In this document: positions 26,137-37,361 of the stretch, piece after piece | How the letters are laid out: every line of letters starts with the position of its first letter | How positions within the stretch are numbered: the first letter of the stretch is position 1 | From: an uncultured Methylococcaceae bacterium | GTDB taxonomy: Bacteria > Pseudomonadota > Gammaproteobacteria > Methylococcales > Methylomonadaceae | Assembly: GCA_903863905.1 (NCBI GenBank) | Contig: CAIPDT010000097.1 | Location: forward strand, 1 to 52,379 | Length of the DNA stretch: 52,379 nt | Direction of reading: 5' to 3' | Notes under the pieces: generated by a model | What the model was told of the DNA's origin: nothing | What the model saw: the letters and a program-made list of their open reading frames with translations, nothing else | Database searches by the model: none | Made by a program: the position numbers and the translations under genes

Positions 26137-26814
26137 ATGAATACGATTTACTCAATTGATTTGTCCCTGCACCCCACTACCTTTGATTTATGGCATGTTT
26201 GTTTGGCAGGTACAGTCTTAGTATTGGCGCTCACTTTAATTATACTGCTTTTAGCCATGGTTGTTAGGATGGCACGTTGTAAACGAAAATCAGTTGAGAC
26301 GGTGACGCCTTTATTGACATCCGCCGTAGCACCTGAGCCGGTGATAAAAATTGTTGAGAAAATTGTTGAGAAAATTGTTGAAGTTGAAAAAATAGTACAA
26401 GCGCCGATACCTGAACCGGTCATTTTAAAAGAATCTACACCGGATGCGGCGTTACAATTATTAGGCTTATTACAAAAAGAAGCCCGTTTTATTGATTTTA
26501 TCAAAGAAGATATTACCTCTTTTAGTGATGAGGATATCGGTGTCGCGGCGCGTGTTGTTCATGAAGGCTGTAATAAAGCCATTAATGAGCATTTCACCTT
26601 AACACCCGTGCGTACAGAACAGGAAGGTAGCAAAGTTACCTTACCATCTGGCTTTGATGCTTCTTTAGTGCGGTTAATAGGTAATATAGTCGGTTCGGCG
26701 CCTTTTACCGGTATCTTAGTCCATAAAGGATGGCAAATCACTGATATTAGATTGGCTAAATTAACGCAAGGACATAATGCTAAAATTTTGGCTTCTGCAG
26801 AGGTTGAGTTATGA
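26137..26814 (+). CDS. DUF2760 membrane-anchored Hsp70 partner
   Basis: The 225-residue protein has one transmembrane helix (about 22-44), a linker with the reiterated IVEKIVEKIVEVEKIV, which is probably a short coiled coil, and a C-terminal DUF2760 domain (LQLLGLLQKEARFIDFIKED, FTGILVHKGWQI, KILASAEVEL). DUF2760 genes are typically found directly before an atypical Hsp70; here the two overlap by four bases (ATGA, 26811-26814). I infer that the protein recruits or regulates this chaperone at the inner membrane. GAGG precedes the ATG. Confidence 0.85.
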   Translation: MNTIYSIDLSLHPTTFDLWHVCLAGTVLVLALTLIILLLAMVVRMARCKRKSVETVTPLLTSAVAPEPVIKIVEKIVEKIVEVEKIVQAPIPEPVILKESTPDAALQLLGLLQKEARFIDFIKEDITSFSDEDIGVAARVVHEGCNKAINEHFTLTPVRTEQEGSKVTLPSGFDASLVRLIGNIVGSAPFTGILVHKGWQITDIRLAKLTQGHNAKILASAEVEL

Positions 26815-34041: not shown

Positions 34042-34602
34042 TTAAGTGACAATAATCGAAACAGGTGCACAAAAATCAGTGACACCTTCAGGGGTAATAC
34101 CCGCCATGATAAAATAATGAATAACACCCACTTCAAGGTCTGTAACCACTGTTGATGCACGGGTAGTGCTATCTAATTGAGTCCAACCGGTAGCATCGAC
34201 AGGTAGAGTGCCCTTGCTGTATTTCCACTCGTATGAATGAGCGCGATTAATGGCTTTAGCATCTAAGTTGACATCACCTGATTTGGTGCCTGCTTTTGCC
34301 GCTAAAACAAGTTTTTGATGGGCTGAAGGAGGTTGGCTAGGATGAAAACCACCGGATAAAATGGATGTTGCATTCCCCTTAGACATTCTTTCGATATAAG
34401 CCGCATTATCACGAAAGGTCTCATCGGCGACGGCTTCACAATCATTCCGTATTGCAATAGCCACTCGATCACCGTTAAGGGCATTAAGGTAGGCCGTTTC
34501 AAGAGCATCAACTACTGCGATAGAAGTTTCTATCGGCACATCTGGTGCAGATAAAGTTGCTTTGATATTGGAAGCCGGGTCAGGATTAATATCAAGCGTC
34601 AA
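34042..34602 (-). CDS. Fn3-like hypothetical protein, possibly interrupted at its start
   Basis: The 186-residue frame has a helical N-terminal part (ETSIAVVDALETAYLNALNGD) and a fibronectin-III-like C-terminal part (SYEWKYSKG, ATGWTQLDST, VTDLEVGVIHYFIMAGITPEG) ending TDFCAPVSIIVT. Such proteins are common as short, unannotated phage- or surface-associated proteins. The only start in this frame is a TTG at 34602, immediately after an in-frame TAA; reading through that TAA gives MPSLANSSA-like residues starting near 34632 behind TTTTAGGAG. So either the gene starts at TTG or a nonsense mutation splits it. Its C-terminal motif recurs in the remnant at 7-180. Confidence 0.5.
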   Translation of the reverse strand: MTLDINPDPASNIKATLSAPDVPIETSIAVVDALETAYLNALNGDRVAIAIRNDCEAVADETFRDNAAYIERMSKGNATSILSGGFHPSQPPSAHQKLVLAAKAGTKSGDVNLDAKAINRAHSYEWKYSKGTLPVDATGWTQLDSTTRASTVVTDLEVGVIHYFIMAGITPEGVTDFCAPVSIIVT

Positions 34603-35121
34603 TTACGCTGAACTATTGGCTAATGACGGCAATCATTGCGGTAACTCCTAAAATATTTTACCGAAAAATGCAATTAATGTTGCAGTTTCTAAAGTAACAC
34701 TGAATCTTAATAAAAGACGGTGTGTTTTGCGACAATAATTAAATAAAACTAATCTATTCATATGGTTAGGATTTTAGTATTTGTTTGTATTATAAATAGA
34801 TCCCCCTTTATAACGATCAAAAATTGCACATACGCTGCTTTATTAAAAAGATTGTTTACTTTTAAAACTGAAATAATTGCAGCTCAAGAAAAAAAACCTA
34901 TTTGCTAGGTGATTTAATTGGTTTTAAGAATTATCCTATACTTTTTTCTACGGTGAACTTACATCGTTCAATACTTTTAGAAAGTAAAGGTACAAAGAAG
35001 CGGAAGTAATGTTATGAATTGTTTATATGTATATGAAGCTAATTTAAAGAAAATGTTTCATTTCATGCAGTTATTATGTCAATGAATATTAATTATAACT
35101 ACAACACCCATAACATCAATT
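34603..35121. other. AT-rich intergenic region, no gene recognised
   Basis: A 519-base gap. It contains the leader fragment of the interrupted Fn3-like gene (34603-34660), a weak minus-strand terminator-like structure (ACCTA 34896-34900, TAGGT 34906-34910, flanked by a run of nine A), and a -10-like TATACT at 34937-34942. A 23-codon open frame starts at 35013 but has no similarity. No ribosome-binding site is evident before the cyclase start at 35122. Confidence 0.5.
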
Positions 35122-36072
35122 ATGCAACGTATTGAAGCCGCTCTAAATGAAGTTGCTGAGCAGGTTAAGCAAGGTAAAGAAAACTTACGCCTGAGTGAAG
35201 CCACTCTACATGAAGTGACTGAGCAGGTTAAGCAAGGTAAAGAAAACTTACGCCTGAGTGAAGCCACTCTACATGAAGTGACTGAGCAGGTTAAACAAGG
35301 CAAAGAAAACCTACACCTGAGTGAGGTCACTCTACATGAAGTGAGTGAGCAGGTTAAGCAAGGCAAAGAAAGCCTACGACTGAGTGAAGCCGCTCTACAG
35401 TCAGTTATTGAACAGGCTAAGTTAGCCAACGACAACTTACATCTGAGTGAAGTCACTCTACATGAAGTGACTAAACAAGCTAATGAAGTAGTAGAAACTT
35501 TGCGCCTTAGCAAAAATAGTTTCGATGAAGCCAGTGAAAATGCTTTGCACGACCCACTTACACACCTGCCAAACCGTATTTTATTTTCCGACCGTCTGAA
35601 ACAGGTTATCTATTTTAGTAATCGCAATGATTTTTATAGTGCATTGCTATTTATTGATTTGGACAAGTTTAAATTGGCAAATGATATGTATGGACATAAA
35701 TTTGGCGATGCAATATTAATTGAAGCGGCACTTAGGCTAAATAATTCTGTTCGTGATACAGACACAGTGGCTAGAATTGGTGGAGATGAGTTCACCGTCA
35801 TTTTAAATGATTTAAAATCAGATAAAAATAAGGCAATGTTAGGTGCTAATGAGATAGCCGTTAAAATACGTAAAAGTTTACTTTCTCCGTATGCGTTAGA
35901 TTTTGATAATAAAGTTAGTTGTTGCACAGCGAGTATAGGTGTTATTTTGTTTAAACATGACGAAATTAGTTCAGAAAATATCGTAGAACTAGCCGATAAG
36001 GCAATGTATCAAGCCAAAATTGTTGGTGGCAATTCCATTCAATTTATCGATTGCAATGGAAACTTTTATTGA
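35122..36072 (+). CDS. Diguanylate cyclase with repeat-encoded coiled coil
   Basis: The 316-residue protein makes cyclic di-GMP. Residues about 1-137 are six 21-residue repeats of the pattern EVTEQVKQGKENLRLSEATLH; 21 residues equal three heptads, so this is a continuous coiled coil that should dimerise the enzyme. The GGDEF domain (about 138-310) has LTHLPNR, FIDLDKFKLANDMYGHKFGD, the active site G220-G-D-E-F224 and the inhibitory I-site R211-D-T-D214 five residues before it. There is no membrane helix or sensory domain. The first ATG lacks a ribosome-binding site, so the gene may be the remaining part of a larger receptor. An HD-GYP gene follows. Confidence 0.85.
   Translation: MQRIEAALNEVAEQVKQGKENLRLSEATLHEVTEQVKQGKENLRLSEATLHEVTEQVKQGKENLHLSEVTLHEVSEQVKQGKESLRLSEAALQSVIEQAKLANDNLHLSEVTLHEVTKQANEVVETLRLSKNSFDEASENALHDPLTHLPNRILFSDRLKQVIYFSNRNDFYSALLFIDLDKFKLANDMYGHKFGDAILIEAALRLNNSVRDTDTVARIGGDEFTVILNDLKSDKNKAMLGANEIAVKIRKSLLSPYALDFDNKVSCCTASIGVILFKHDEISSENIVELADKAMYQAKIVGGNSIQFIDCNGNFY
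35128..35526 (+). repeat. 63-bp in-frame tandem repeat array
   Basis: Six 63-bp units (from 35149, 35212, 35275, 35338, 35401 and 35464) preceded by a partial unit. Units one to three are nearly identical, later ones diverge. The array encodes the coiled coil of the diguanylate cyclase. Confidence 0.9.
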
Positions 36073-36088
36073 TTACCATCGGTAATCA
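36070..36088 (+). terminator. Short hairpin at the cyclase stop
   Basis: TGATTACC (36070-36077) and GGTAATCA (36081-36088) form a perfect 8-bp stem with an ATC loop; the stop codon TGA lies in its left arm. AAAA follows instead of a T-run, so it may be an mRNA 3' structure rather than an efficient terminator. Confidence 0.4.
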
Positions 36089-36215
36089 AAAGACAAAATG
36101 GCTCAAACTGATGAGTCGCAAAGAACTATATAAGTATGCGTCAGTATTACAATAACTCTAAAAATAATAGACAATTCAGTTGGTTATGACAAATCATAAG
36201 GAGCCATTATAAATT

Positions 36216-36917
36216 ATGCCTAATAGTGCAGCAGAGCTCATCATTGCCAATAAAGAGTTGGCTTTTCAAGTTGAGCAGAAGGAAAAACTGGTAACAGAAT
36301 TGGCAATTGCAAATAAAAAACTGCAAGCCGCACTTTTGGAGGTCATTGCTGTAGCGAGGCAATTGGGTGAAATGCGCGATCCTTATACCGCTGGTCATGA
36401 AAAAAATGTGGGGGATTTAGCGGCAGAAATTAGTGCTGAACTTTGTTTGGATGAACATTTTCAAGAAGTTATGCGTACCAGTGGCTATTTACACGATATT
36501 GGCAAAATTATAATTCCCATTGAAATTCTGGCTAAGCCATCAAAGCTAAGTAAAGAGGAATACGCTCTCGTTAAGAACCATGTTTATGCAAGTTATCAAG
36601 CGCTTGGACACATTAATTTTCCGTGGCAAATAGCACGGGCAGCGTTAGAGCATCATGAGAGAATGGATGGTAGTGGTTATCCAAATGGTCTTAAAGGTGA
36701 AGAAATATCAATGGAAGGGCGAATTCTAGCTGTAGCAGATGTGGTTGAGGCAATAACATCACATCGTCCCTACCGTAAAGGATTAGGGATCGAAGCGGCG
36801 CTTAAAGAAATTGAGCGTGGTTCTGGAAAACAATACGATACGAATGTCGTTAATGCTTGTATAAAGCTATTTAAAGAAAAGGCTTACAAAATACCTGAAT
36901 CAATGAGCTCAATATAA
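36216..36917 (+). CDS. HD-GYP domain cyclic-di-GMP phosphodiesterase
   Basis: The 233-residue product has a short predicted coiled coil (about 1-45, ANKELAFQVEQKEKLVTELAIANKKLQ), a segment type usually found between a PAS/sensor region and an output domain, then a complete HD-GYP domain: MRDPYTAGHEKNV (His61), YLHDIGK (H93-D94), NHV (His122), HHERMDGSGYP (146-156) and AVADVVEAI (Asp175). HD-GYP enzymes hydrolyse c-di-GMP to GMP or pGpG. GGAG precedes the ATG. No sensor domain is present. It lies 143 bases after the diguanylate cyclase, so synthesis and degradation genes are paired. Confidence 0.88.
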   Translation: MPNSAAELIIANKELAFQVEQKEKLVTELAIANKKLQAALLEVIAVARQLGEMRDPYTAGHEKNVGDLAAEISAELCLDEHFQEVMRTSGYLHDIGKIIIPIEILAKPSKLSKEEYALVKNHVYASYQALGHINFPWQIARAALEHHERMDGSGYPNGLKGEEISMEGRILAVADVVEAITSHRPYRKGLGIEAALKEIERGSGKQYDTNVVNACIKLFKEKAYKIPESMSSI

Positions 36918-36953
36918 TTTGCACGATTTTTTATATCATCAAGTCTCTCAACA

Positions 36954-37361
36954 TCAAAGCAGTTCCTTTACTAATTCAAGTTGCTCTGCGAGTTGCTCAT
37001 CGCTATACGGTACCGCAGTAAACTTTCCCCACACCGGCGCTGGCCAAGCTCTATCAGTTTGATAGCGTACTACATGATGCACATGCAGTTGCGCTACCAA
37101 ATTACCGATCGCGGCAATATTTAATTTATCGGCTTTGAATATTCTAGCGATGTTCTCTGCAAGGTAGTTGGATTCGTCGGCTAATAAATGTCGATTTTCT
37201 GCACTCAGTTGATGAATCTCTGTAATATCTGCCATTTCTGGCACTAAGATAAACCAAGGATATTGGCTGTCATTCATCATTAATAATTGGCATAACTCAA
37301 AGCGACCTAGGTGGATGCAATCGGCTTTTAAGCGGGGATGTATTTCAAATAATGGGCTCAT
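36954..37361 (-). CDS. HIT domain protein
   Basis: The 135-residue histidine-triad protein resembles the small family with the QLHVHHVVRYQTDRAWPAPVWG ending. The triad motif is H-V-H-H-V rather than the usual H-x-H-x-H; the same spelling is, as far as I recall, normal in this subgroup. HIT proteins are nucleotide hydrolases or transferases (for example AMP-lysine or Ap4A-like substrates). The substrate is unknown. It is convergent with the HD-GYP gene; no strong ribosome-binding site precedes its ATG. Confidence 0.85.
   Translation of the reverse strand: MSPLFEIHPRLKADCIHLGRFELCQLLMMNDSQYPWFILVPEMADITEIHQLSAENRHLLADESNYLAENIARIFKADKLNIAAIGNLVAQLHVHHVVRYQTDRAWPAPVWGKFTAVPYSDEQLAEQLELVKELL

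Follow-up and report, generated by a model that had tools for sequence, protein, structure and literature searches.

How do the coiled-coil linkers of diguanylate cyclases gain length in heptad steps, and does the number of steps matter to the enzyme? The origin of seven-residue linker steps is usually hidden, but at the locus described here it is visible as near-identical 63-bp copies at the head of a cyclase gene, and the appeal of this array lies in an expansion that keeps phase. The DNA analyzed, hereafter called the window, is one entire contig (C97; 52,379 bases) of a 2.79-Mb genome of 179 contigs (G000) with a completeness of 99.98.

The array and its cyclase

The cyclase ORF (35122..36072, + strand; 316 aa), delimited from the ORF list and Pfam matches, consists of an N-terminal tandem-repeat helix followed by a GGDEF domain. 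Tandem Repeats Finder reported a 63-bp array at 35133-35472 with 5.4 copies, 85% matches, and 0% indels. Combined with in-frame reading, this gave six tandem 63-bp units of 21 residues each (35137..35514, + strand), and residues 1-131 of the protein are made up of five leading residues and these six units with no gaps. At an offset of 63, 255 of 315 positions matched, compared with a mean of 83.7 and a maximum of 107 when the letters of this stretch were shuffled 1000 times. A preliminary description of this DNA had placed a tandem array of six 21-residue units at 35128-35526; the array and the unit count were confirmed, and its limits proved to be narrower. The longest exact repeat in the array at offset 63 is 76 bases, so that a miscount of units by short-read assembly is possible. 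In pairwise nucleotide comparisons, units 1-4 (35137..35388, + strand) were mutually similar, with 53-59 of 63 nucleotides identical, whereas units 5-6 (35389..35514, + strand) had diverged. The array is followed by a degenerate junction that is one unit long when read in frame and contains DPLT, where the GGDEF domain starts (35515..35577, + strand).

The Pfam GGDEF model (PF00990) matched residues 141-304 with 137.4 bits (cut-off, 23.8; E 5e-40). The I-site is defined as an RxxD motif located five residues ahead of GGDEF. In the cyclase, R211-D-T-D214 is followed by the five residues TVARI and the GGDEF motif at residues 220-224 (35752..35793, + strand), and R211, D214, and G220-F224 were invariant in all 26 aligned sequences, which were taken from the first 32 listed by leaving out L063 (which has a stop), L052, L055, L066, L080, and L101. 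No sensor domain was found in the cyclase by Pfam, and the protein has only five residues ahead of the array. The earlier statements that the array expands the helical stalk of a cyclase, that the I-site is present, and that a sensor is absent were therefore upheld, the stalk helix being a predicted one. A match of the exonuclease VII small subunit (19.6 bits; Pfam cut-off, 24) fell below its cut-off and was taken as coil resemblance, and SMC matches were set aside for the same reason. Eleven GGDEF matches, including this cyclase, were found in the window genome. The cyclase is a genuine feature and a variant of known coiled-coil cyclases.

In the AlphaFold2 monomer model of the cyclase (mean pLDDT, 90.9), the stalk was predicted to be helical at residues 2-104 and 110-142; the interruption at residues 105-109 falls close to the end of unit 5, in a block with a mean pLDDT of 67. 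The GGDEF structures listed by VIA-align included GCN4-WspR (3i5c; Z 24.1, rmsd 6.9, 193 aligned) and SiaD (7e6g; Z 25.3, rmsd 38.1, 245 aligned), in a comparison that barely tests the residues before 103.

An HD-GYP phosphodiesterase-like gene (36216..36917, + strand; 233 aa; Pfam HD_5, 142.8 bits; cut-off, 27.2) is located 143 bp downstream of the cyclase on the same strand, and the HD and GYP motifs were recognized in it by eye. Within the genus, the seven relatives most similar to it are in longer open frames of 409-773 residues. The start of this gene (36216-36350) encodes a coil-like stretch, ELIIANKELAFQVEQKEKLVTELAIANKKL, in which ELxIANKxL occurs again after 21 residues. A cyclase gene and an HD-GYP gene also adjoin each other, in divergent orientation, at L010 151-2421 (G006:C40), on a contig with further GGDEF and HD-GYP matches. 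At a greater distance from the window cyclase are genes for citrate synthase, a HIT protein, and a DUF3418-containing helicase; in a scan of nine neighboring ORFs, none stood out as a sensor or partner gene.

A promoter and terminator scan of 34500-37100 yielded 15 promoter-like sites, where 9.1 (sd 2.8) were expected. On the + strand, none was found ahead of 35122 and two were found just ahead of 36216, which makes a cyclase/HD-GYP operon only putative. Three weak pairs of inverted repeats were also found. No Shine-Dalgarno sequence was evident ahead of ATG 35122, as was also the case for several other ORFs of the window, and expression of the cyclase is accordingly uncertain. Read in frame from ATG 35014, which has the purine-rich sequence GCGGAAG ahead of it, the DNA is open for 23 codons and stops at TGA 35083-35085; 12 codons separate this stop from the cyclase ATG. 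Elsewhere in the window, a 186-residue ORF starting from TTG was observed at 34042-34602 (- strand; best Pfam match PKD_6, 12 bits; cut-off, 25), and a perfect 12-bp tandem repeat of 2.9 copies (AAAATTGTTGAG) was observed at 26347-26381 inside a DUF2760 gene.

Distribution and history of the units

No second protein with the repeat was found in the window genome. When 301 genomes of the order were searched with the array at E <= 0.001, six matches were obtained, namely the window's own and those in G232, G020, G193, G203, and G227. The match in G020 contained stop codons in the matched frame, and those in G193, G203, and G227 (genus g32) were within an ORF that we take to encode a GspF-like secretion protein and were regarded as chance resemblance. 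A two-sequence profile matched 4 of 311 genomes of the order: the window genome, G232, and, weakly, G098 (E 7.7e-5) and G001 (E 1.1e-4). Across these two overlapping sets, the only clear coding match besides the window was that in G232. Scans of 369 genomes at the class level and 398 at the phylum level each returned the window itself only. In a DNA search, 61 of 201 family genomes matched; among the matches listed other than the window's own, only that of G232 (241-931) overlapped the array, and the rest were in or near the GGDEF part. Only the window cyclase and its orthologue described below (L039) exceeded 40% self-identity when 125 distinct GGDEF ORFs were scanned for tandem repeats ahead of the GGDEF domain at periods of 7 to 63 residues, ORFs with <45 residues upstream being skipped. 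L043 (from a Methylomonas MAG), L045, and L010 had a coil ahead of GGDEF with no evident sensor and no recognizable units. None of the papers listed in literature searches, in which subscription papers were thinly covered, described an array of this kind in a cyclase.

Arrays with a 63-bp period in G018 and G020 were considered as possible remnants of the cyclase array and set aside, since their base period is 21 bp and their sequence differs. Intergenic tandem arrays whose units of 63 or 42 bp show a 21-bp sub-period were observed in two genomes of the same genus (L136 1-206; L137 1500-1698; L139 1514-1682; L141 1530-1757).

The best relative of the cyclase among the best 80 of 554 was L039 from Methylococcaceae bacterium isolate bin_45 (JAIFMS010000145.1; E 1e-75; next, 5e-50), which is the same locus as the G232 match (L120) and belongs to a MAG of another genus. 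Its array has three units, KYFQTANKQIALGKENLRLSE (degenerate), AALAKRTQQVEQLKESLRISE, and ASLQERTQQVEQIKESLRLSE, followed by a junction of 21 residues at the same place and of the same length as that of the window, with 9 of the 21 residues identical. The two proteins, identical in 133 of 277 aligned columns, share the 21-residue unit, the junction length, the I-site, the GGDEF motif, and the lack of a sensor. Ahead of LHD, L039 has 75 residues and the window cyclase 141, and the difference consists of 63 residues, equal to three units, and 3 residues at the N-terminus. Unit number thus differs between these two orthologues from different genera, six versus three, with the heptad phase kept, and their linkers differ by a multiple of seven (63 residues) with the junction length unchanged. 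The L039 ORF begins directly with the array, behind the Shine-Dalgarno-like sequence AAGAGG, indicating that the absence of a sensor in the window cyclase is not due to local truncation. A crude scan found no HD-x-G motif in the other ORFs of at least 150 residues in the 10.8-kb L039 locus. In the AlphaFold2 monomer model of L039, a single helix was predicted from residue 2 to residue 76 up to the GGDEF domain, and the predicted helix likewise extends to this domain in the monomer model of the window cyclase. The two orthologues might be used as a natural length series in which stalk length is varied apart from phase.

The nucleotide identities of neighboring units were 59/63 for units 1-2, 58/63 for units 2-3, and 56/63 for units 3-4. 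Compared with units 1-4, unit 5 was identical at 45-47 and unit 6 at 42-46 of 63 positions, and units 5 and 6 matched each other at 37/63. The near-identity described earlier for units 1-3 therefore holds, but the group comprises units 1-4. None of units 1-4 matched any L039 unit at more than 43/63 nucleotides; the values were 37/63 for unit 5 against the second unit of L039 and 38/63 for unit 6 against the third. At the amino acid level, units 1-4 were identical to the third unit of L039 at 13-14 of 21 residues, but to units 5 or 6 of their own array at only 9-12 of 21. That units 1-4 are nearer to each other than to the L039 units fits amplification or homogenization after the split of the two lineages, and the nucleotide and amino acid comparisons suggest that units 5-6 are older copies and that units 1-4 arose by later amplification. 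Nei-Gojobori estimates, based on 63 bases per unit, gave dN of 0.021-0.134 and dS of 0.075-0.485 among units 1-4, with dN below dS in all six pairs and near-equal values for units 1-2 (0.064 versus 0.075). The preliminary description had called the array young or homogenized. By comparison with L039 this applies to units 1-4, but not to units 5-6, and youth in particular fits the 1-2 pair, with its dS of 0.075, but not units 2-4, among which dS was 0.20-0.36.

Heptad register and possible roles of the stalk

In the best heptad frame of the array, position a is occupied by Leu, Val, or Ala in all 18 heptads, and position d by Val, Gly, Ser, or Ala, with Gly or Ser in 10 of 18, so that the coil may be weak. 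The typical unit has Leu, Val, and Leu at a and Val, Gly, and Ser at d, and one of its three heptads is a good one. The exact heptad register noted previously is thus kept in that 21 is 3x7 and indels are absent, but only a third of the heptads are good ones. The mean a/d hydropathy was 2.52 in the best frame and 0.92 in the next. Among 2000 within-unit permutations, 0.7% reached this hydropathy and 5.7% reached the period-3.5 power, and the heptad signal was therefore judged to be moderate.

When 18 heptads were counted back from DxLT in DgcR numbering, position e was always A, V, L, or F, and the mean hydropathy was 3.48 at e, -2.13 at d, and 1.24 at a. Within the array, polar or small residues occupy the d positions used by native DgcR. 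The sole good frame of the array, referred to DxLT, corresponds to the a/e pattern of DgcR. According to one study, the register of DgcR is a-d in the native enzyme and a-e after activation, and fusing GCN4 to WspR in the active register gives a highly active protein (PMC8041772). The agreement between the two frames, judged by hydropathy, suggests that the stalk may favor the active register of the GGDEF dimer. When ranked by how far hydropathy at e exceeds that at d in the last four heptads, L039 was first and the window cyclase third among 128 GGDEF ORFs (a mixed comparison set, from which 6 were skipped), and the same ranks were obtained among the 50 ORFs without Pro or Gly there; over the last two heptads, the window cyclase ranked second and L039 fourth of 128. 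These ranks are indicative only, because PAS-ended proteins ranked 2, 4, and 5 among the 50 ORFs, and the sensorless L010 ranked 25 of 128 over four heptads and 50 over two. The last two heptads ahead of DxLT in the window carry Asn/Ala and Ser/Phe at d/e. Since Ala, Ser, and Asn are described as residue types allowed at switchable d/e positions in the same study (PMC8041772), a register switch at the junction would also fit. The mean hydropathies at d and e over the 18 heptads speak against slippery axxdexx heptads, in which either position can be used.

Of the claims in the preliminary description, the least likely is that the array tunes dimer geometry. Adding or removing entire units of 21 residues does not shift the phase at the GGDEF junction, and a change in their number should therefore affect the length and stability of the stalk, not its phase. 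We tentatively favor, at somewhat less than even confidence, a soluble sensorless cyclase that dimerizes in an active-like register and is kept in check by I-site feedback and perhaps by the HD-GYP protein, with a phase-neutral stalk. Two copies of the cyclase would pair via a long parallel coiled coil of S-helix-related 21-residue units, and the core of this stalk on the DgcR a/e positions would hold the two GGDEF domains near-active without a signal, which would make the activity constitutive. The amount of c-di-GMP would then depend on how strongly the gene is expressed, on inhibition by the product at the I-site, and perhaps on how much of it the HD-GYP neighbor removes. Units may have been gained or lost through unequal recombination or slippage in phase-keeping steps of 21 residues; because such steps keep phase, unit number would be near neutral for catalysis, and only stalk length and stability would change.

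One observation against this explanation concerns Arg18, Leu19, and Glu21 of the unit, at positions b, c, and e outside the a/d core. Their fairly good conservation between the two lineages is easier to reconcile with binding of a partner than with a plain rod. The stalk might instead be a row of docking sites for a partner that switches or places the cyclase, as SiaC does with SiaD, so that more units would offer more sites. We consider this reading possible but rather unlikely. Identity across the two lineages at unit positions 17-21 (LRLSE) was 1.00, 0.67, 0.67, 1.00, and 0.83, but Leu17 and Ser20 of this motif are core positions, other positions of the unit are equally or better conserved (Gln9, 1.00; Glu15, 0.83; Lys14, 0.67), and the conservation is a thin one, drawn from nine units of two species. 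The NCBIfam SiaD model (NF038266) matched residues 84-304 with 110.8 bits, which is below its cut-off of 290 bits and places the cyclase outside SiaD as the model defines it. SiaC gave no match in the window genome or in 14 control genomes, although 16 of 151 order genomes, including G006, were positive in the same search, and no candidate partner gene was seen among the neighboring ORFs.

It is unlikely that the array is neutral slippage DNA whose role is only to keep the frame open, with one or two units adjoining GGDEF doing all the work. The array is at the extreme N-terminus, where phase-preserving units would be tolerated, its unit number varies between the orthologues, and it occurs in few genomes. 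However, the excess of dS over dN in all six pairs of units 1-4, close to nil for units 1-2, and the hydrophobic residues at all a positions both fit selection on the helix. Still less probable is a decaying gene, in which the upstream start with its ribosome-binding-site-like sequence has been cut off by the TGA and the present ORF, with no Shine-Dalgarno-like sequence ahead of it, is poorly translated: the L039 ORF has nothing ahead of its array and is preceded by a Shine-Dalgarno-like sequence of its own, the catalytic motifs are intact, AT-rich DNA often contains short open stretches, and several other window ORFs also lack a clear Shine-Dalgarno sequence. Very improbable, finally, is a stalk of freely expanding, phase-neutral 21-residue cassettes that each carry a docking motif while the catalytic geometry stays fixed; if true, unit number would set the partner count or assembly size, amounting to a countable scaffold on a second-messenger enzyme.

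Comparison with known systems

The favored reading, a soluble cyclase with a phase-neutral stalk, can be set beside three kinds of known linkers. The S-helix is described as a coil of about 40 residues and five heptads that adjoins signaling domains such as GGDEF and HD-GYP (PMC1592074). At positions c, d, and e, the window units have EVA, EVT, EVT, EVS, SVI, and EVT, which differ from the ERT signature of the S-helix, whereas the L039 units have TAN, KRT, and ERT and its junction has KRT, exactly at these positions.

In DgcR, WspR, and PadC, as in the window cyclase, a coil leads into the GGDEF domain, and the lengths of such linkers mostly differ by multiples of seven, according to two reports (PMC8041772, PMC9587094). 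These proteins have Rec or phytochrome sensors, whereas the window cyclase has none and the d positions of its array are mostly polar.

SiaD of Pseudomonas aeruginosa (PDB 7e6g) resembles the window cyclase in being a sensorless GGDEF enzyme with a long stalk helix. The portions of the SiaD report that were available mention no tandem units of the kind seen in the window cyclase; they describe SiaC as binding to the stalk and switching SiaD on, with four SiaC molecules on the stalks of each SiaD dimer (PMC8457831). SiaD is the closest functional analogue of the window cyclase.
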